From positions 1-23,626 of IMG/VR virus record IMGVR_UViG_3300032286_000236: a stretch of 23,626 bases of DNA. The stretch is one strand, 5' to 3'. The notes under the pieces were generated by a model. That model searched no databases. It had not been told where the DNA came from and saw only the letters and a program-made list of their open reading frames with translations. Shown piece after piece: positions 3,936 to 22,671 of the stretch; position 1 is the stretch's first letter, and every line of letters starts with the position of its first letter. A program made the position numbers and the translations under genes. This stretch comes from a virus.

Positions 3936-3952
3936 CGTCATATAATATGACG
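3936..3952. promoter_or_regulatory. regulatory palindrome, copy 1
   Basis: CGTCATATAATATGACG is a perfect inverted repeat with 8-bp arms around a central A. This copy lies 29 bases upstream of the -35 box of the first plus-strand promoter, and about 110 bases from the nearest start codon. It is the leftmost of six copies, all in the plus-strand arm. Confidence 0.7.
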
Positions 3953-3981
3953 CCACGCCTAAAAATATATTTGCAGCCTAC

Positions 3982-4010
3982 TTGACCTAAACGCCCTAAA
4001 CCCTCATAAT
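3982..4010 (+). promoter_or_regulatory. sigma70-type promoter for the 209-aa gene
   Basis: TTGACC (3982-3987) and CATAAT (4005-4010) are separated by 17 bases and fit the housekeeping consensus closely. Transcription would start near 4017, giving a leader of about 46 bases before the ATG at 4063. It faces the single gene that ends in the strong terminator at 4706-4733. Confidence 0.65.
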
Positions 4011-4062
4011 TGACCCATGAAGCCAAAAGGTTTCATATCCGAGAAAAAGAAAAGAGAAAATC

Positions 4063-4692
4063 ATGGCAAAAGAAAAAGCAGTAAAAGAAGCAGTAAAGCA
4101 AAACCTAGCAATTCAAAACGATTACGCTGAACTAATTGCGAGTGGCGTGGATAGCAATTCACAAGCAATCCAATTTGTTCAGATGGTGGCATGTGAGATG
4201 GAAAACGGCACAACAATCCGAGAGGTGAAAGCATCCATGCAATCACTTTTGAAAGACATCAACATTAAGCCAATTATCCTGCCCACCCATGCTGAAGCAA
4301 TTCCTACCGCCAATTTAATAATTGGTAAATATGCTGATGAAATTGAGTCAATCAAGGTCAGCAAAATCCTCTCACTATCTGCCCGAGTTTTAGCGGATAA
4401 GAAAGCGAGTGGCGTTAAGGCTCATATTTCAGCGTTCAAAACTTTTGACGAATTGGATGCGAAAACCGCCACCAAGAAAGAAAGCCAAACCCGAGATGGC
4501 TCAACAAAAGCGAAAGTGGAAAAGTCAAAACCAATCGCCAATGTCGCAGAATTAGTATCCGCAATTTATTTGGGTACTACCAAGCATAAGCCAATCGGGC
4601 AATTAGATGAGCAAGGATTAAAAGAATTAGGCGCAATCACCGCATGGATGATGACCCTAAAGAAAAACCAAGCAGTAAAGGTGAACGCCTAA
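4063..4692 (+). CDS. unknown Lys/Ala-rich protein, moron-like unit
   Basis: This 209-residue protein is not recognised. It is rich in Lys and Ala, largely helical in appearance, and has no Cys cluster, signal peptide or obvious membrane segment. Residues about 130-160 form a polar linker (T-K-K-E-S-Q ... K-V-E-K-S-K), and a compact C-terminal helical part follows, with AITAWMMTLKK near the end. The ATG at 4063 is preceded by AAAGAGAAAA, a weak ribosome site. The gene has its own promoter upstream and a very strong terminator downstream, so it is transcribed alone. That arrangement is typical of morons, phage cargo genes expressed independently of the lytic programme. Function unknown; a host-benefit or exclusion role is only a guess. 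Confidence 0.75.
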   Translation: MAKEKAVKEAVKQNLAIQNDYAELIASGVDSNSQAIQFVQMVACEMENGTTIREVKASMQSLLKDINIKPIILPTHAEAIPTANLIIGKYADEIESIKVSKILSLSARVLADKKASGVKAHISAFKTFDELDAKTATKKESQTRDGSTKAKVEKSKPIANVAELVSAIYLGTTKHKPIGQLDEQGLKELGAITAWMMTLKKNQAVKVNA

Positions 4693-4705
4693 GAAAAGAA
4701 AAGGT

Positions 4706-4733
4706 AGCCCCCCGAAAGGGGGGTTATTTTTTT
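4706..4733 (+). terminator. strong rho-independent terminator
   Basis: AGCCCCCC (4706-4713), a GAAA tetraloop and GGGGGGTT (4718-4725) form a near-perfect G+C stem, followed by ATTTTTTT. It begins 13 bases after the stop codon of the 209-aa gene and closes that unit. This is the clearest terminator in the window. Confidence 0.92.
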
Positions 4734-4748
4734 GCCCAAAAATTTTTC

Positions 4749-4872
4749 CAACACAAACCAACACAAACTAATGTGTACAACTCCGTATGGGTACAGGAAC
4801 GAATCGCCCCAAACAATCATGCCCAAGCCAGCAAAAAATTCAACACAAACCAAACAATTCCGTATGGGTACA
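4749..4872 (+). repeat. duplicated two-part direct repeat
   Basis: CAACACAAACCAA occurs at 4749-4761 and 4841-4853. TCCGTATGGGTACA occurs at 4782-4795 and 4859-4872. The two words keep their order in both copies, but the gap between them is 20 bases in the first copy and 5 in the second. They lie between the terminator and the second promoter, so a binding-site role is possible. The 334-base stretch 4693-5026 contains no gene. Confidence 0.55.
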
Positions 4873-4897
4873 ATTATGAAAAGGCTCATTTGAGCCT

Positions 4898-4914
4898 CGT
4901 CATATAATATGACA
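4898..4914. promoter_or_regulatory. regulatory palindrome, copy 2
   Basis: CGTCATATAATATGACA carries the 15-bp core 4899-4913. It lies 14 bases upstream of the -35 box of the next promoter. A separate 7-bp inverted repeat AGGCTCA/TGAGCCT (4882-4897) abuts it on the left. Confidence 0.7.
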
Positions 4915-4928
4915 AAATTCTTCTAGAC

Positions 4929-4963
4929 TTGACACAGGCAATGCTAGGCATTAAAATTATGCC
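4929..4963 (+). promoter_or_regulatory. strong sigma70-type promoter with -10 inverted repeat
   Basis: TTGACA (4929-4934) and TAAAAT (4952-4957) are 17 bases apart. The -10 box sits inside an inverted repeat, GGCAT (4947-4951) and ATGCC (4959-4963). Transcription should start near 4964 and read the small genes from 5027. The sequence is closely matched by the promoter at 5819-5853 (shared TTGACACAG and TAAAATTAT). The embedded repeat suggests repressor control. Confidence 0.8.
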
Positions 4964-4988
4964 AACGGGAAAAAACCCCCGCCATGTC

Positions 4989-5005
4989 CGTCATATTATA
5001 TGACG
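4989..5005. promoter_or_regulatory. regulatory palindrome, copy 3 (opposite orientation)
   Basis: CGTCATATTATATGACG is the reverse complement of the other perfect copies and differs only at the central base. It falls about +26 to +42 of the predicted transcript and 21 bases before the ATG at 5027. As RNA it can form a 7-bp hairpin with a 3-base loop. Confidence 0.7.
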
Positions 5006-5026
5006 GCATTAGACAGAGAGGTAAAA

Positions 5027-5176
5027 ATGGATATCTTGACCGATAACCCAATACTATCTGCTCTTATGCAAAGTGCAGAAGTACAAAGAAATATCAAAGC
5101 CGAAGCAGAGCGCAAGGCTAAGGTTGCCGAGCAGACACGTAAAGCAATGGATAGGGCAACTCATGAGTGGAGATAG
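5027..5176 (+). CDS. 49-aa basic/charged small protein
   Basis: ATG at 5027 follows AGAGAGG by 5 bases and gives 49 residues starting MDILTDNPILSALMQSAEVQ and ending in a Lys/Arg/Glu/Ala-rich helix. It is the first gene after the strong promoter at 4929 and overlaps the next gene by 14 bases, which supports it being real. The second half could form an amphipathic helix or coiled coil. No family is recognised. It may be an early host-takeover peptide by position, but that is a guess. Confidence 0.65.
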   Translation: MDILTDNPILSALMQSAEVQRNIKAEAERKAKVAEQTRKAMDRATHEWR

Positions 5177-5309
5177 TATTGCACTCGACTTCATGAGTGA
5201 AGATGAGATAGCCGAGATACTTGCAACTGAGGGTATCTTGGAAGTTGATATGTCCGATTTCAACGACGAGTATTTAGAGGATGTTGCTTCGGACTCGGAC
5301 TACGAATAG
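5163..5309 (+). CDS. 48-aa hyperacidic small protein
   Basis: From the ATG at 5163 the protein has 48 residues, of which 17 are Asp or Glu and none are Lys or Arg. An AGGG about 7 bases upstream supports this start. Reading the same frame from the ATG at 5073 would overlap most of the previous gene and lacks a ribosome site. The next inner ATG is at 5193. The extreme negative charge recalls DNA-mimic inhibitors such as T7 Ocr, but the protein is much shorter and no homology is visible. It is co-transcribed with the 49-aa gene. Confidence 0.65.
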   Translation: MSGDSIALDFMSEDEIAEILATEGILEVDMSDFNDEYLEDVASDSDYE

Positions 5310-5319
5310 CAACTGGACA

Positions 5320-5463
5320 GCCCACGCTAGACGGCATAATCATGAGTGCAATTCTCATGGTGGGCACTGAGTGTATTGGTATGCATAGTCAATCAGCAGG
5401 GAAACCTGAAATGATGTTATGAAGGTCGCCACTTACCATACCATAGTGGATACCAATACACTC
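5320..5463 (+). ncRNA. candidate structured RNA with three-way junction
   Basis: No gene fits here, but the transcript would fold strongly. Hairpin A: GCCCAC (5320-5325) pairs with GTGGGC (5360-5365), with CATGAG/CTCATG (5341-5346/5354-5359) stacked inside. Domain B is closed by a perfect 14-bp helix, 5369-5382 with 5450-5463. Inside it, one arm stacks CATA/TATG, ATCA/TGAT and CAGG-GAAA-CCTG (5397-5408), a GNRA tetraloop. A second arm is CCACT/AGTGG (5429-5433/5445-5449). It lies between two small genes on a predicted transcript and ends 7 bases before a palindrome copy. It could be a cis-element, a processed small RNA or a trans-acting RNA. No known RNA family is recognised. Confidence 0.6.
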
Positions 5464-5470
5464 TCCACTC

Positions 5471-5487
5471 CGTCATATAATATGACG
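5471..5487. promoter_or_regulatory. regulatory palindrome, copy 4
   Basis: A perfect CGTCATATAATATGACG, 20 bases before the ATG at 5508. The bases after it (GGCACTA) resemble those after copy 3 (GGCATTA), so the repeat unit extends beyond the palindrome on the gene side. Confidence 0.7.
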
Positions 5488-5507
5488 GCACTAACTAAGG
5501 AGATAGC

Positions 5508-5636
5508 ATGTACATAGAGATAACAGACAGCATAGCCGTAGTGCTGGCACTTAGCGTGAGTACCACGCTGGTCATTACTACTGCTATTAAAAACGCTAAA
5601 CTTGTACGCAAAGTGCGTGAGTTAAGTGGAAAATAA
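5508..5636 (+). CDS. 42-aa single-pass membrane peptide
   Basis: ATG at 5508 follows a strong AAGGAGA ribosome site. The 42-residue product starts MYIEITDS, then carries one hydrophobic segment of about 20 residues (8-27) and ends in a Lys/Arg-rich tail, so it is probably a membrane peptide with a positive cytoplasmic end. Overlap of 11 bases with the next gene supports translation. Function unknown. Confidence 0.65.
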   Translation: MYIEITDSIAVVLALSVSTTLVITTAIKNAKLVRKVRELSGK

Positions 5637-5844
5637 AGTAGACTTTGCCAATGATATTATTCTCGCATTGACTAGGGATGAACTAGAAACAGTACGAGAA
5701 TCTTTACGGCAATTCTCCATAAATAATACTCGTCATGGCTTTACGGCTAGGGCGGTATTTGCTGATAACTTACGGGATAAGGTCGTGAATATCATTCTCG
5801 ATAGTGTCCAGCGTAAAATTGACACAGATAAGGAATTGGTATAA
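5626..5844 (+). CDS. 72-aa hypothetical protein
   Basis: The frame opens with GTG at 5626 behind GAGTTAA and encodes 72 residues, mostly predicted helix, charged and soluble (ALTRDELETVRESL, DKVVNIILDSVQRKID). No Cys or known motif is seen. It overlaps the membrane peptide by 11 bases, and its 3' end contains the -35 box and part of the -10 of the next promoter. Function unknown. Confidence 0.7.
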   Translation: MENKVDFANDIILALTRDELETVRESLRQFSINNTRHGFTARAVFADNLRDKVVNIILDSVQRKIDTDKELV

Positions 5845-5853
5845 AATTATACC
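5819..5853 (+). promoter_or_regulatory. promoter of the amidoligase operon
   Basis: TTGACA (5819-5824) and TAAAAT (5842-5847) are 17 bases apart. The -10 is flanked by GGTAT (5838-5842) and ATACC (5849-5853). It shares TTGACACAG and TAAAATTAT with the promoter at 4929, and the inverted arms differ in a matched way (GGCAT/ATGCC versus GGTAT/ATACC). Transcription should start near 5854. Confidence 0.78.
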
Positions 5854-5856
5854 ACT

Positions 5857-5879
5857 CGGCAAGAGAGAGTCTTTTGCCG
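5857..5879 (+). repeat. leader hairpin before the amidoligase
   Basis: CGGCAAGAGA (5857-5866) and TCTTTTGCCG (5870-5879) form a 10-bp stem with one G-U pair and a 3-base loop, starting about 3 bases after the predicted transcription start. It abuts palindrome copy 5. A 5' stem of this type can protect an mRNA or block ribosome access; which applies is unknown. Confidence 0.55.
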
Positions 5880-5894
5880 TCATATAATACGACA
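5878..5894. promoter_or_regulatory. regulatory palindrome, copy 5 (one mismatch)
   Basis: CGTCATATAATACGACA has one arm mismatch (ATAC for ATAT). It starts at about +25 of the predicted transcript, the same place as copy 3 relative to its promoter, and ends 11 bases before the ATG at 5906. Confidence 0.65.
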
Positions 5895-5905
5895 AGGATA
5901 GGAAA

Positions 5906-7120
5906 ATGGATACGACAACTGAAGAGGATGTTGTATCGCAGTTAAAGTGTGATTATTGCAGTAACACTACTGATGAACTCAATTCAGTAGTATCTGCAAC
6001 TGATGACCGATACTGCGACGATTGTGCAAGAATCTGTGAGCGTTGCGACTTTATAGGTCATCAAGATGATGACTTTAGTGTCGTAAACGACGCAGAAGTA
6101 TGGTGTCAGGGTTGCGTAGAGCGATACTCTAACTGGTGCGACTGGCACGAACAATACTTTACTGGTGATACTTACTATGCTGATGATAGTAATAGCACAT
6201 TTTGCGAGTATTGCTATCAAAACAATACCGCATATTGTGAGGATTGTGATGCCTCTTTTGTTAATGGTTGCGAGAGAGACCATGATGAATCTAGGCTCAT
6301 TCACGATTACTCATACCGCCCTGACTTAATCTTTCATCAGACTGATGACGATACCCGCCTGTACTTTGGTATTGAGATTGAGACAGAGCATAGAAGCGAG
6401 GATTACTCCAACAAAAATATTGCAGCGGAGTATGCTCATAGGCTAGAGAGTATGGACTTGGCTTACCTCAAATCTGACGGCTCGCTAACTTGTGGCTTCG
6501 AAATAGTTTCTCATCCAATGTCTCATGACTTCTTCATGAATGAGGCAGATGACTTTTGGGATACTATCTCCACGCTTAAGAATCGGTACAATATGATTTC
6601 ATGGGGCACTCGTACCTGTGGTGTCCATATTCATATATCTCGTAGCGGGTTTAATGGCGGTGCACACCAGCACCGATTCTTGCAACTTGTCTACAATAAC
6701 CAAGCCTTCTATGAAACTATGGCTGGTCGCTCATCAGATAGATGGGCTAGTTTCCATGATGTTGACATGCCAAGAGGTGGCAAATCCTTTATGCGTAAGA
6801 TTAGATACCATAGAGATTCAGAGCGATACTCTGCCGTCAATACCATCAACCGAGATACACTAGAGATGCGTATCTTTAGAGGTACTCTCAATGTCCGCTC
6901 ACTCAAAGCGATTATTAACTTAGCGCATGCCAGCGTTGAGTTCACTCGCAACGTGTCAGTACCGCAAGTCCGAGCAGGTTATCTCAACTGGAATAACCTT
7001 GTTCAATATGTAAAGAGCAAGCCCGAACTATACTCTGAACTTATCGCTAAGTTCGATAGAGTAAGTACTCAACTACAAGCAATCGAAAGGATAGAAGACA
7101 ATGTGTCTATTGGTCGTTAG
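5906..7120 (+). CDS. amidoligase with N-terminal zinc-ribbon array
   Basis: This 404-residue protein has two parts. Residues 15-125 carry repeated CxxC knuckles (C15/C18, C37/C40, C44/C47, C67/C70, C100/C103, C111/C114, plus C78/H81), a zinc-ribbon or treble-clef array. Residues about 150-350 match the phage amidoligase type (Amidoligase_2, glutamine-synthetase-like fold): GIEIETE (155-161), DGSLTCGFEIVSHP (191-204), CGVHIHIS (238-245) and TLEMRIFRGTL (318-328). Family members are predicted to use ATP to join a carboxylate to an amine. The substrate here is unknown. The next gene, a glutamine amidotransferase, overlaps by 20 bases and probably supplies ammonia. The ribosome site is AAGGATAGGA. 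Confidence 0.85.
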   Translation: MDTTTEEDVVSQLKCDYCSNTTDELNSVVSATDDRYCDDCARICERCDFIGHQDDDFSVVNDAEVWCQGCVERYSNWCDWHEQYFTGDTYYADDSNSTFCEYCYQNNTAYCEDCDASFVNGCERDHDESRLIHDYSYRPDLIFHQTDDDTRLYFGIEIETEHRSEDYSNKNIAAEYAHRLESMDLAYLKSDGSLTCGFEIVSHPMSHDFFMNEADDFWDTISTLKNRYNMISWGTRTCGVHIHISRSGFNGGAHQHRFLQLVYNNQAFYETMAGRSSDRWASFHDVDMPRGGKSFMRKIRYHRDSERYSAVNTINRDTLEMRIFRGTLNVRSLKAIINLAHASVEFTRNVSVPQVRAGYLNWNNLVQYVKSKPELYSELIAKFDRVSTQLQAIERIEDNVSIGR

Positions 7121-7922
7121 TTCACCGAATAGCACTCCAAGCAAGAAAGACTTAGAGTGTGCTTCGTGTAATAATCCGCATGGCTTCGGCTATGCTGTAA
7201 TCGCTGGTAATAAAATTATTACTGGTAAAGGTATGTCTGCTAAGAAGGTCATCAAGGAGTTCCTAGCAGTACGCAAGCAATACCCATCTAGTTATGCTAT
7301 GTATCATGCTAGATTCGCTACTCATGGCGTTAAGAATGATGACAACTGTCATCCATTCCAAGTTGGCAATAGCGACCTAACTTACTTAGCGCACAATGGT
7401 ATCCTCGATGTTGATATCCCAGTCAATGACAAGCGTAGCGATACCCGTATCTTTGCTGACGATATCTTACCTGCTATGGGTGGTGTCAAAGCATTAGATA
7501 ATCCTAACTTATACCGCATGCTAGAGAAGTTCGCTAGTGGTAGCAAGATTGCAGTCTTTACCCTCGACCCTGCAGCCGATTATGACTGCTATATTATCAA
7601 CGAGGACTTAGGTACATGGGATAATGACGGCAACTGGTGGTCTAATGATTCGTACAAGGAGTCATCATGGTCATCATTCTATAAGAAGTATGACTATACC
7701 GTCATTGATGACGACACCATGGATGATAACATGTGCCGTATGTGCGAGGCTATGCCCGTAGAAGATGCAAATCCATACTACTGCGAACAATGCCATACAT
7801 GCTATGACTGTAATGGTGTCTATGGCTCATCATGCATGTGCTGGTCTCCCGAGTGGGATAGATACTCCAGTTCCAAGAGAGAGGTAGCAAAGTATAATGG
7901 TCAATACGACTTCGGTTTCTAG
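7101..7922 (+). CDS. class II glutamine amidotransferase, Cys-rich tail
   Basis: This 273-residue protein has the N-terminal nucleophile fold signature: Cys2 exposed after Met removal (MCLLVV), NNPHGFGYAV (24-33), YHARFATHG (68-76), NCHPF (82-86), AHNG (97-100) and SDTRIF (113-118). Such domains release ammonia from glutamine and pass it to a partner. The partner is very likely the upstream amidoligase, whose 3' end overlaps this start by 20 bases. Residues about 212-246 form a second metal-binding region rich in CxxC, absent from ordinary amidotransferase domains, which may dock to the zinc array of the amidoligase. The start at 7101 is required for the catalytic Cys2. Confidence 0.88.
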   Translation: MCLLVVSSPNSTPSKKDLECASCNNPHGFGYAVIAGNKIITGKGMSAKKVIKEFLAVRKQYPSSYAMYHARFATHGVKNDDNCHPFQVGNSDLTYLAHNGILDVDIPVNDKRSDTRIFADDILPAMGGVKALDNPNLYRMLEKFASGSKIAVFTLDPAADYDCYIINEDLGTWDNDGNWWSNDSYKESSWSSFYKKYDYTVIDDDTMDDNMCRMCEAMPVEDANPYYCEQCHTCYDCNGVYGSSCMCWSPEWDRYSSSKREVAKYNGQYDFGF

Positions 7923-8061
7923 TGAAGCAGTACGCAAGACTATCATTGAGTTAATCTCTGTCGTAAGACAGGATGCTGACTCAGATAAGATAGTAGCAAA
8001 TGCTCGACTACTAATAGATAACCTGTCATATAATATGACAAGAAAGGATAGCAATGACTAA
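7897..8061 (+). CDS. 54-aa small ORF spanning a palindrome
   Basis: ATG at 7897 opens 54 residues. It overlaps the amidotransferase end by 26 bases and the next start by 8. GAGAGAGG lies 12 bases upstream, slightly far. The product looks helical (AVRKTIIELISVVRQD). Palindrome copy 6 lies inside the frame and would encode LSYNMT. The bases could instead be simple intergenic sequence. Confidence is moderate. Confidence 0.45.
   Translation: MVNTTSVSSEAVRKTIIELISVVRQDADSDKIVANARLLIDNLSYNMTRKDSND
8024..8040. promoter_or_regulatory. regulatory palindrome, copy 6
   Basis: TGTCATATAATATGACA is a perfect palindrome with T/A outer bases, a matched change from the C/G outer pair of the other copies. 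It ends 13 bases before the ATG at 8054. A weak TCGACT lies 17 bases upstream of its TATAAT, so promoter activity is possible for this copy. Confidence 0.68.
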
Positions 8062-8665: not shown

Positions 8666-8778
8666 TGAGTGAGCCAATGTACCTATCAGGAGATGACTAT
8701 GCCCTAAATGGGGTAGAGGATGAAGATGATGAAGTAATCATAGATGAACCTGACCGCATGTGGGAGGATGATGAATAA
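8665..8778 (+). CDS. 37-aa hyperacidic peptide
   Basis: ATG at 8665 shares its A with the previous stop. Of 37 residues, 16 are Asp/Glu and one is Arg. Like the 48-aa protein at 5163, it is far more acidic than its neighbours. Overlapping start and stop codons on both sides support translation, but a peptide this short could also be only a coupling ORF for the WhiB gene. Confidence 0.5.
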   Translation: MSEPMYLSGDDYALNGVEDEDDEVIIDEPDRMWEDDE

Positions 8779-9118
8779 AGGCAACTGTGCTGGCGATGAT
8801 AATCCAGACTACTGGTATCCTGAACTACCTCAGTATCGATTATCCAACGCCAAGTTAGAAGTACTTACTAAACAGACCAGTTATGCGCTAAAATTATGCT
8901 CTACCTGTCCCATCAAAGATGAGTGCCTAGAAGAAGGCATGAAGACTGAGCAGATGCGTGGAAGCGTAGTCGGATGGGGCAATCTGCCATTCGGTATATG
9001 GGGCGGAACTATGCCACATGAAAGATTAGAGATGGTTGGCATAACCCCAATAAATAATAAGGGAGCAGTAGTTAGTGCTGCATTTGCCCTAAGAAGACTA
9101 TCAAGTCAGAATCGATAA
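8771..9118 (+). CDS. whiB: WhiB-family iron-sulfur regulator
   Basis: The four cluster-binding cysteines are present: one near the start (KGNCAGDD) and CSTCPIKDEC, followed by the turn GIWGG and PHERLEM. WhiB proteins are small actinobacterial transcription factors with a 4Fe-4S cluster that bind region 4 of the primary sigma factor. Phage copies (TM4 WhiBTM4 is the known case) can interfere with host WhiB control. The spacing YWYPE after the first Cys fits the family's FFP motif. The start is uncertain: GGGAGG ends 3 bases before the ATG at 8771, while an in-frame ATG at 8744 would add nine residues with a weaker site. The C-terminal basic tail is short. Confidence 0.9.
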   Translation: MNKGNCAGDDNPDYWYPELPQYRLSNAKLEVLTKQTSYALKLCSTCPIKDECLEEGMKTEQMRGSVVGWGNLPFGIWGGTMPHERLEMVGITPINNKGAVVSAAFALRRLSSQNR

Positions 9119-9689: not shown

Positions 9690-10130
9690 ATGAAAGATTC
9701 AAATTGGGACTTAGACTTACGTGCTGGTGAAGCAGGTGAGAGTTATCTTGCTGACCTATTACACGCAGATACTATAGAAGTCAAGACTGATAGACGATGG
9801 AAAGATACTGGTAATATATTTATAGAAACTGAATGCTTCCAACAGAGTACTCAGAAATGGGAACCATCAGGAATATCTATAAGTAAAGCAACACATTGGG
9901 CATTCGTACTGGGTAATATGGTTCTAATAGTATCAAAGAATGAACTATCTTCTGCTGTTGAATGGCTTGGTTATCCTGTTGAAAACAAGATGCCACCTAA
10001 TCCAAGCAAGGGTTATATCGTAACTCCTCAAGCCTTGATAAGTTATATTCGTTCTAGGAATGAAGAGTTTGATAATGCTGGTGAGCAGTACAAGAACTTA
10101 ATGGAGTCAGGAGATACTATTGCTCGATAG
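9690..10130 (+). CDS. PD-(D/E)XK-like nuclease, putative
   Basis: This 146-residue protein has an early GEAGESYLADLL, then IEVKTDRRWKDTGNIFIE, where E30-V-K32 and the following TGNIFIE strand match the core of restriction-endonuclease-like folds in phages. A role in DNA cutting or DNA processing is inferred; no substrate is known. The start directly follows the previous stop, with TGGAGG just upstream. Its last 14 bases overlap the end of the leftward sigma-like gene, so the two arms converge here without a visible terminator. Confidence 0.6.
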   Translation: MKDSNWDLDLRAGEAGESYLADLLHADTIEVKTDRRWKDTGNIFIETECFQQSTQKWEPSGISISKATHWAFVLGNMVLIVSKNELSSAVEWLGYPVENKMPPNPSKGYIVTPQALISYIRSRNEEFDNAGEQYKNLMESGDTIAR

Positions 10131-10851
10131 ATTCATCTTGTTCATCTGCCCGCTCTTCATACCTCTCGCTTTCGCTCTCTTCTACTTCTACGGATTCGAG
10201 ATTATTTTGACTATCTTCTTCGGCATTTGGAGAATCCTTATCTAACCAAGGTCGGAATCCACCGATACGTGTGATAAGTTTCTTAATGGCACGATTATGG
10301 CGCATTCGGGCTGCATCTTCACTACCTAACTTCATCTCGGTAGCGATAGAACCATAATCAAGAGATTCAGCGTACTTGTAAAACAATACTGTCCTATCCT
10401 CGGTATTGAGTTTACGGTACGCTTTATCTATTTCAATCATCATGACCATCATGTTGCCACCCTCTGCTGGTGCTGGTGGTTTTCCTGGTCCTCCAAGATT
10501 TAATTTATGAGATACTCCATGTTCCTTACGAATAACCATTGGAAGTATTGCTTCAACAACAGTCACATCATAGTAAAACATATCTGATACCTCATAGCCT
10601 AACGTCTTTGCTTTCCAACGCTGGCAGTAATCTAAAGCCTGATTACGAAGTGAGCGGTATATCAGATTCTTGGCATCTTTTTCGCCTATGGCTTCCCATT
10701 CTTTTAACTTATTAGGATGTTCAGCAAACCATTCATAGAGTGATTGCTTTATATCATCATGCTCTACCATCTGATACTTCTTAGCATATTCAGATGATAC
10801 TGAGATTACAATGTAATCCCACTTCTCTATAGCAGACCAATCCATTACCAT
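10117..10851 (-). CDS. sigma-70-like factor with acidic tail
   Basis: The 244-residue protein resembles actinophage sigma-like factors. Residues about 30-105 form a region-2-like helical block (DDIKQSLYEWF, NLIYRSLRNQALDYCQRW). Residues 140-195 read like region 4: AYRKLNTEDRTVLFYKYAES, then YGSIATEMKLGSEDAARMRH as a helix-turn-helix. A Gly/Pro linker (118-132) joins them, and residues 203-244 are an acidic tail. It may steer RNA polymerase to phage promoters. It is the last gene of the replication operon, overlapping the phosphoesterase by 7 bases. An alternative ATG at 10845 would remove two residues. Confidence 0.68.
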   Translation of the reverse strand: MVMDWSAIEKWDYIVISVSSEYAKKYQMVEHDDIKQSLYEWFAEHPNKLKEWEAIGEKDAKNLIYRSLRNQALDYCQRWKAKTLGYEVSDMFYYDVTVVEAILPMVIRKEHGVSHKLNLGGPGKPPAPAEGGNMMVMMIEIDKAYRKLNTEDRTVLFYKYAESLDYGSIATEMKLGSEDAARMRHNRAIKKLITRIGGFRPWLDKDSPNAEEDSQNNLESVEVEESESERYEERADEQDESIEQ

Positions 10852-21765: not shown

Positions 21766-22671
21766 TTAGCGTGTGTAGTGTGGTCGGATTGGATACTTGC
21801 CAGTTAGTTTAGAATTCTCTTCTTTAACTCTCTGTTGGTATAGAGCATAAATATATTTAGAGGCTGACTGACCAGCACTTGATGGAATCTTTGAATCAGC
21901 ACTTTCTGCTTCTGCAGATGTAAAGTTAATTCTTCCAGCATCTAGGTAAGATAATAGTCTGTAACATGCACCAAGAGTAACAACATCACGACATGTTTCT
22001 GGCAGGCCAGTTACATCTGAAAAATCCTCATTGGCTGAATCTAGAGTATTTGGTGTAGAGCGATACCAAACCTGTACGGTTCTGCCTGGTGTAATATAAT
22101 CATAAATTACAATTGCAGCATTAGAGTTAAATGAATCAGTATTTGCCATTTGGTCTAATCGCCACTTGTCAACCATCTTCCACTCCTTAGATGGTCCAAC
22201 TGTTTCCCAAGATACTTGGAATACATCTTCACATTCATCTGGAAGGGCATAACTATTTTGGGCAGGATTGAAAGTAAAAGTATATGACTCCATAGTCCAT
22301 AATGTTGGAAATAGACTATTGATAGTGTCATTGATTGCTTGCTTAATGTTTACTCTAGGAAATGTTGGGGCTAATGTTACTTGTGCATATCTGGAGTGTG
22401 GGGCAGCAGATGTATTGCTATAGCCACGACCAAAGCCAGGAATTGCTGTAAGGGTGTTAGATGTTTTATCAAATGAATCAATCCAGATAAGTTCTTCATC
22501 AATCTCAATAATACCTTTTGCAAGGTTAGATGATGAGCCAATTTGAATGGCAGTATCAGTCGTTGTTAGACCACTAGAGTTGGCAAGATAGGTAATGCGG
22601 TCTTGACGCATTGTATAGCCAGCAAGGTTAGACCTTACTTCATCAATCATATCTTTAAGCGTTGCCATCAT
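21766..22671 (-). CDS. tail/adaptor structural protein
   Basis: This 301-residue protein begins with a helical DMIDEVRSNL stretch, followed by a beta-insert (IIEIDEELIWIDSF ... TAIPGFGRGYSNT ... HSRYAQV) of the same type as in the fibre-like gene. Next come INDTINSLFPTLW and NSYALPDECEDVFQVSW, a layout reminiscent of head-tail connector or tail-tubular adaptor proteins. The C-terminal Ala/Ser/Tyr-rich helix completes it. No tape-measure or major tail gene is in the window to settle the tail type. It overlaps the zinc-ribbon gene by 17 bases. Confidence 0.62.
   Translation of the reverse strand: MMATLKDMIDEVRSNLAGYTMRQDRITYLANSSGLTTTDTAIQIGSSSNLAKGIIEIDEELIWIDSFDKTSNTLTAIPGFGRGYSNTSAAPHSRYAQVTLAPTFPRVNIKQAINDTINSLFPTLWTMESYTFTFNPAQNSYALPDECEDVFQVSWETVGPSKEWKMVDKWRLDQMANTDSFNSNAAIVIYDYITPGRTVQVWYRSTPNTLDSANEDFSDVTGLPETCRDVVTLGACYRLLSYLDAGRINFTSAEAESADSKIPSSAGQSASKYIYALYQQRVKEENSKLTGKYPIRPHYTR

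Follow-up and report, generated by a model that had tools for sequence, protein, structure and literature searches.

A palindrome set in a phage genome changes together with its putative reader, o209, among related phages

The stretch analysed here, referred to as the window, is 23,626 nt of viral DNA (IMG/VR record IMGVR_UViG_3300032286_000236, positions 1 to 23,626). A scan of the window identified six copies of the palindromic core GTCATATAATATGAC between 3937 and 8039, and these, together with the gene for a 209-residue protein that we call o209, are the subject of this report. An earlier note on this DNA had described six palindromes with no copy elsewhere, and when we allowed up to two mismatches only those six were found in the 23.6 kb. 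All six sites were recovered, at positions one base higher than the note had given. The nearest further match to the core, at 22274, carries three mismatches, a level at which 13 matches were observed versus 1.3 in shuffles. The palindromes are numbered below as operators 1 to 6, a name that anticipates the function we propose; they are given without a strand, and the genes and promoter-like elements of the locus are listed with them.

3937-3951, no strand: putative operator 1, GTCATATAATATGAC; upstream of the o209 promoter
3982-4010, plus strand: promoter-like TTGACC-17-CATAAT for o209; its -10 element ends 66 bp after the centre of operator 1
4063-4692, plus strand: o209, putative reader protein of 209 aa, with a confident helical domain predicted to be DNA-binding (residues about 11-147) and C-terminal helices
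4063-4692, plus strand: predicted base-reading residues of o209, I52, R53 and E78
4708-4723, plus strand: intrinsic terminator-like hairpin with a T tail, closing the o209 unit
4899-4913, no strand: putative operator 2; its centre is at about -58, counted from the inferred start of the 4929-4957 promoter
4929-4957, plus strand: promoter-like TTGACA-17-TAAAAT, between operators 2 and 3
4990-5004, no strand: putative operator 3, with centre T; at about +33, ending 22 nt before the ATG at 5027
5472-5486, no strand: putative operator 4, ending 21 nt before the ATG at 5508
5819-5847, plus strand: promoter-like TTGACA-17-TAAAAT, upstream of operator 5
5879-5893, no strand: putative operator 5, GTCATATAATACGAC; at about +32, ending 12 nt before the amidoligase ATG at 5906
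5906-7120, plus strand: amidoligase-like protein (Pfam PF12224)
7101-7922, plus strand: class-II glutamine amidotransferase-like (GATase) protein, the query used for finding relatives
8025-8039, no strand: putative operator 6, inside the 3' end of the open reading frame at 7897-8061, ending 14 nt before the ATG at 8054

As had been proposed, operators 3 to 6 end shortly before start codons, operators 1 and 2 precede the promoter-like elements at 3982-4010 and 4929-4957, and the copy at 4990-5004 is the reverse complement of the core. The window sites come close to perfect dyads, with symmetry at 12 arm positions; the copy at 5879 is not a perfect palindrome, one of its half-sites being imperfect (TACGAC). 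The elements at 3982-4010, 4929-4957 and 5819-5847 are the top three promoter-like sites of the region, and each adjoins palindromes. No promoter call overlaps any palindrome, the separate promoters lying 40-60 bp away, in agreement with the suggestion that the palindrome itself is not a standard promoter. The six palindromes are genuine and are part of a wider system that extends across relatives of this phage.

To find these relatives, viral contigs were scanned for the exact core and then with the GATase protein. The exact-core scan returned contigs in which the set and its spacing are those of the window, and the GATase scan returned 80 relatives (loci are given L numbers below); an amidoligase-based scan of viral contigs and a terminase scan of bacterial and archaeal genomes each found no relative. 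Few of the GATase-found relatives share the window core, the commonest form there being TGTCATA-N3-TATGACA, and where the region is covered, nearly all the remaining relatives have another palindrome set at those same gene junctions. These related water viruses show at least 15 half-site types. Those with a 3-bp centre include GTATTA, GTCTGA, GCCGTA, GCTGTA, ACTATA, ACTTTA, GTATGA, GTCCGA and GTACGA; those with a 4-bp centre are GTTCGG, GTCGGG and GTTCGT; GTCGGC has a 2-bp centre, and an ATATTA type was likewise found. The palindrome centre is almost always A or T. The sites are uniform inside each genome and different between genomes, a pattern that needs a trans-acting reader of the sequence. 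By the earlier note's own criterion, which turned on the motif at these junctions in related phages, the exact motif is missing from most of them, but a different palindrome stands there, which supports a function while changing its meaning. The proposed confinement to the plus-strand arm holds in the relatives: over 56 loci, 422 sites fall no more than about 4 kb to one side or the other of the GATase start, and the 319 kb farther out contain none; the site orthologous to operator 1 lies about 3.0-3.4 kb upstream of that start. At operator 6 the flanks align across several types and the palindrome itself has been exchanged, which suggests that each site was rewritten where it stood and that the set did not arrive as a single block.

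An o209 homologue lies between operator 1 and operators 2/3 in each relative covering the region. Among 97 non-redundant loci, 69 have both o209 and a palindrome set, 25 have neither, one has o209 alone and two have a set alone. Hence 69 of the 70 relatives with an o209 homologue carry 5-10 palindromes at the same gene junctions, and 25 of the 27 relatives without o209 carry no palindromes. The two set-only loci are L406 (a CTTTCT-type call) and L234 (a TGTGAT-N4-ATCACA repeat). A sister group lacking o209 retains the terminase, amidoligase and GATase and is likewise without sets; the split is partly phylogenetic, and the co-variation test described below therefore weighs more. In four members of this group (L228, L234, L224 and L170), 2-4 copies of TGTGAT-N4-ATCACA lie 0.5-0.75 kb upstream of the terminase, possibly as the site of a separate regulator. 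One o209 copy was present in 15 of 16 longer records and none in the sixteenth, which may be a fragment.

We compared pairwise protein distance with half-site distance for the 17 genes of the compared region, taking partial correlations with backbone distance removed. The o209 protein is the most variable of the 17 (mean distance 0.73, versus 0.60 for WhiB, 0.33 for GATase and 0.19 for terminase), and its distances correlated with those of the palindromes (rho 0.71; partial correlation 0.68), a value reached in 0 of 2000 permutations. Partial correlations for the other genes were 0.25 at most (amidoligase), followed by 0.23 (a 72-aa protein), 0.21 (sigma-like), 0.10 (WhiB) and 0.00 (FmdB-like). 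Among the 17 genes tested, o209 alone has a divergence that tracks palindrome type. Loci L100 and L106 illustrate this: their backbones are about 95% identical and their terminases and GATases 96-97% identical, the o209 proteins are 36% identical, and the half-sites read GCTGTA and GTCATA, respectively. Conversely, GCCGTA recurs in L097 and L140, where o209 is only about 26% identical, and it is such recurrence of palindrome types in distant o209 lineages that the following residue-base test exploits.

An alignment of 47 o209 proteins, forming 22 clusters at 60% identity, gave a rule relating three residues to the three outer bases of the half-site, which are predicted almost without exception in these proteins. 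The residue before 53 is V or I where base 2 is T, and Q, T or G where it is C. Residue 78 is Q or H with A3, E, D or R with C3, and P, S or A with T3, with zero exceptions; it is the best column of the alignment for base 3, matched in 0 of 400 permutations. Since the permutations take clusters as independent, this significance is overstated. An R or K at residue 53 is always accompanied by G1 and an E by A1, small residues being uninformative. Arginine-guanine, glutamine-adenine, glutamate or aspartate-cytosine and aliphatic-thymine methyl pairings are chemically plausible.

The rule was then applied to o209 proteins outside the rule set, most of them fetched after it was made. In raw score, all three bases were correct in 18 of 29 evaluable sets. 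For odd-length sets the figure was 12 of 13, and the thirteenth (L390) has Leu52, which falls outside the rule, with T2. Correct cases reach far from the rule set, with best identities to it of 38% (L376), 46% (L385) and 32-34% (the L243/L246/L260 lineage). In this last lineage Glu53-Val52-Gln78 correctly predicted ATA, a combination absent from the training set; the L243 and L246 palindrome was seen before the rule was stated, while their proteins lay outside the rule set. Of the 11 raw misses, four are of the GTTCGG type and were called one base out of register, and three have a residue outside the rule or a poor alignment (L268, L390, L352). The other four (L344, L347, L349 and L356) form the TCCGTT lineage, which has even spacing and may use a different register. 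Taken together, these comparisons suggest that three o209 residues largely predict the palindrome that is read.

Placement of the sites is also regular. In the relatives, the end of a -10 element falls 30-60 bp before a site centre 116 times, versus about 9 expected, and 40-60 bp after a site centre 49 times, versus about 6 expected, giving modes of the site centre near +35 and -58 from the inferred start, beside sigma-A-type promoters. A ribosome-binding site and start follow within 70 nt of 56% of sites versus 18% of random points (median 21 nt). Where two sites bracket a promoter, the distance between them is 89-114 bp and keeps no strict helical phase, so that the arrangement does not call for a rigid loop. 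The downstream sites would favour repression, and the upstream sites leave activation possible.

The o209 family alignment is too variable to serve as a scan query. Pfam, PHROG and PDB sequence searches of the family returned nothing convincing, tblastn with three o209 proteins found no match in 50,697 phage records, and an o209 profile found no homologue in the Firecracker genome. AlphaFold2 predicted a helical domain for the L129 protein (predicted local distance difference test, pLDDT, 91.6; predicted template modelling score, pTM, 0.86) and scored the window protein at pLDDT 83.4. In the predicted fold the third helix, which begins with residues 52-53, is positioned as a recognition helix would be, and residue 78 is near the beginning of the fourth. 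The sole strong fold match in a viral library was an unnamed 243-aa protein, A0A6G6XMX5 (E 1e-3, probability 1.0). A second structural aligner, run on two models, listed ParB, KorB, SopB or Spo0J DNA-binding domains at Z about 3-4.4, beside unrelated helical proteins with equal Z.

The site set, its co-occurrence and co-variation with o209, the residue-base rule and the promoter geometry make it probable that the palindromes are operators of a dimeric o209, in an autoregulated helix-turn-helix system that most likely represses. We infer from them that o209 binds the sites physically, dimerises, and represses rather than activates. An o209 dimer would read the palindromes, whose half-site in outer-to-inner order is GTCATA. 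Base 2 would be read by residue 52 and base 1 by residue 53, at the start of the recognition helix, and base 3 by residue 78, near the beginning of the helix that follows. Because its gene lies between operator 1 and operators 2/3, o209 probably controls itself. Bound protein would occupy sites about 58 bp ahead of sigma-A-type promoters and others about 35 bp past their starts, the latter just ahead of the ribosome-binding sites of early genes. It would most likely repress these genes by blocking initiation or early elongation, in addition to its own promoter. In related phages, reader and all operators would have changed together, yielding mutually different specificities. The operator set was one of the functions that the earlier note had offered, and it is the one strongly supported here.

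Several points weigh against this interpretation. The rule was first scored on the data in which it was noticed, and the clusters share ancestry. The four TCCGTT-lineage misses truly fail at base 3, L137 is wrong at base 1 (Ala53, at most 33% identity) with bases 2 and 3 correct, and bases 4-6 have no clear explaining residues. Neither the full nor the domain models gave a Foldseek match in the PDB at E<=0.001, and o209 showed no significant fold or profile match to a known DNA-binding family. Finally, position -58 could equally serve activation.

This last point leads to the alternative that o209 is an activator or dual regulator, recruiting host RNA polymerase to the early/middle arm from the -58 sites. 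The upstream centres, about 58 bp before the inferred start, are near a class-I activator position, and the -35/-10 matches are good without being perfect; however, a site downstream of the start is commoner (116 versus 49), which is unexpected for an activator, and several sites have no nearby promoter, so we consider activation unlikely. We regard it as very unlikely that a ParB-type protein serving segregation, replication or packaging uses the sites as centromere- or nucleoid-like loading points, with regulation secondary. Both structural models do match ParB, KorB and SopB DNA-binding domains weakly, and the sites are dyads of parS-like size, but no ParA-type ATPase was found in 13 longer relatives (whose records may be incomplete) and no o209 member has a ParB-family match: among 47 members no ParB-type Pfam match, including the N-terminal CTP-binding domain, was obtained at E<=0.1. 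Moreover, the sites do not cluster; they are scattered among junctions and associated with promoters and starts.

The earlier note had also considered an RNA processing or stability hairpin and a site for the phage's own sigma-like factor, and both fared poorly. Most copies do fold (6-8 bp, z down to -5.5) and many are found immediately upstream of ribosome-binding sites, as might be expected of 5'-end hairpins controlling the stability, processing or translation of mRNA. Palindromy by itself yields a hairpin, though, and the copies are uniform in each genome; within genomes, one-sided changes outnumber pair-preserving double changes by 60 to 5, and 31 of the 60 break a pair. At 5879 the copy fails to form the hairpin, sites 1 and 2 precede promoters, there is no Rfam match, and the residue-base rule would be left unexplained, all of which makes this reading extremely improbable. 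Promoter elements for the sigma-like protein or a WhiB partner are scarcely credible either: the core contains TATAAT and both genes are inside the window, yet TATAAT is missing from many types (GTCTGA, GTATGA, GTTCGG, GTCGGG), the divergence of neither gene tracks palindrome type, with partial correlations far below that of o209, and ordinary TTGACA/TATAAT promoters lie alongside, about 40 bp off.

The proposed o209 control resembles several known systems in part. Cluster A stoperators, found in temperate phages, are 13-bp asymmetric sites oriented with transcription, with as many as about 30 in a genome (PMC6550527, PMC9283540). As in the Cluster A repressor-stoperator system, one phage-encoded reader would serve many short junction sites, and reader and sites diverge jointly between related phages (PMC6550527), as they do here. 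Unlike Cluster A, the sites here are dyads, 5-10 of them in one arm, and the reader has no family that we found; no tyrosine or serine integrase was detected in 16 longer relatives (28-41 kb records, possibly incomplete). By analogy, the system likely works like stoperator control, although it would not be classed as a stoperator system. Cluster K start-associated sequences (SAS), GGGATAGGAGCCC, are asymmetric, overlap the ribosome-binding site and lie 3-7 bp before starts, and the extended form (ESAS) has 17-bp imperfect arms, a variable spacer and a consensus that differs between phages (PMC3203893). Both are start-associated repeats in non-structural genes, as here, whereas the window sites are palindromic and end 12-22 nt before starts.

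Dyads closer in form are known from two other clusters. In Cluster O (Corndog, Firecracker) a 17-bp repeat, TGTTCGG-N3-CCGAACA, occurs in 34 copies genome-wide, most of them away from promoters (PMC4351075), and we counted 34 TGTTCGG-N3 sites in Firecracker. Like the present sites it is a dyad whose arms are invariant and whose variable centre is AT-rich, many copies are intergenic or near starts, and its half-site recurs in one type here, TGTTCGG-N4, with a spacer of 4 rather than 3. The window differs in having six copies of another sequence, and the TGTTCGG relatives in having N4 and fewer than 10 copies. Cluster EG Microbacterium phages carry 8-10 18-bp dyads, GATCAACC-N2-GGTTGATC, in one arm, typically 14-22 bp upstream of starts (PMC7302621). 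Their position is similar to that in the window, while sequence and length differ; one sequence is kept across Cluster EG, whereas here the sequence radiates and co-variation offers a candidate reader. For the Cluster O and EG dyads, reader and function are not given in those reports (PMC4351075, PMC7302621). A parallel for the reader comes from ParB and Noc, in which R173 of ParB reads G1, Q173 of Noc reads A1 and a further contact residue lies in a later helix (PMC7383237), and from KorB, an operator-binding repressor of several plasmid promoters (PMC7383237, PMC11790492). In these proteins a helix-turn-helix and the following helix read a dyad, as may be the case for o209. Beyond the weak structural similarity (Z 3-4.4), o209 shares no family match with them, and hhalign against R751 KorB, a Firecracker ParB-like protein and a plasmid ParB/KorB alignment found no similarity; the parallel thus suggests a mode of action and is not proof of family.

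Some further features of the region were noted. Within 5906-7922, the amidoligase-like protein has an N-terminal Cys-rich segment and is followed by the overlapping class-II glutamine amidotransferase-like gene, a pair present in nearly all relatives. Near the palindrome arm are WhiB-like and sigma-region-4-like genes, at 8744-9118 and 10117-10851 (minus strand); WhiB is poorly conserved across relatives. A single-copy palindrome-like GGGTCTTAAAATATGACCA, about -1.7 kb from the GATase start, is common to L091, L093 and L112, genomes of different operator types.

Judging from the sequence comparisons, we would file the o209 system as a variant of phage repressor-operator control with a new reader family. 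More tentatively, phages with no recognisable integrase may keep an immunity-like repressor-operator system whose specificity is under strong diversifying selection, such that close relatives in a co-infection do not cross-repress one another; its reader would be a new family with a three-residue code and operators rewritten in place. The residue-base rule predicted palindromes in phages outside the rule set, and with o209 named as the candidate reader the question is directly testable. The o209 family offers a natural experiment in which a regulator and its many operators switch specificity together in backbones up to about 95% identical.

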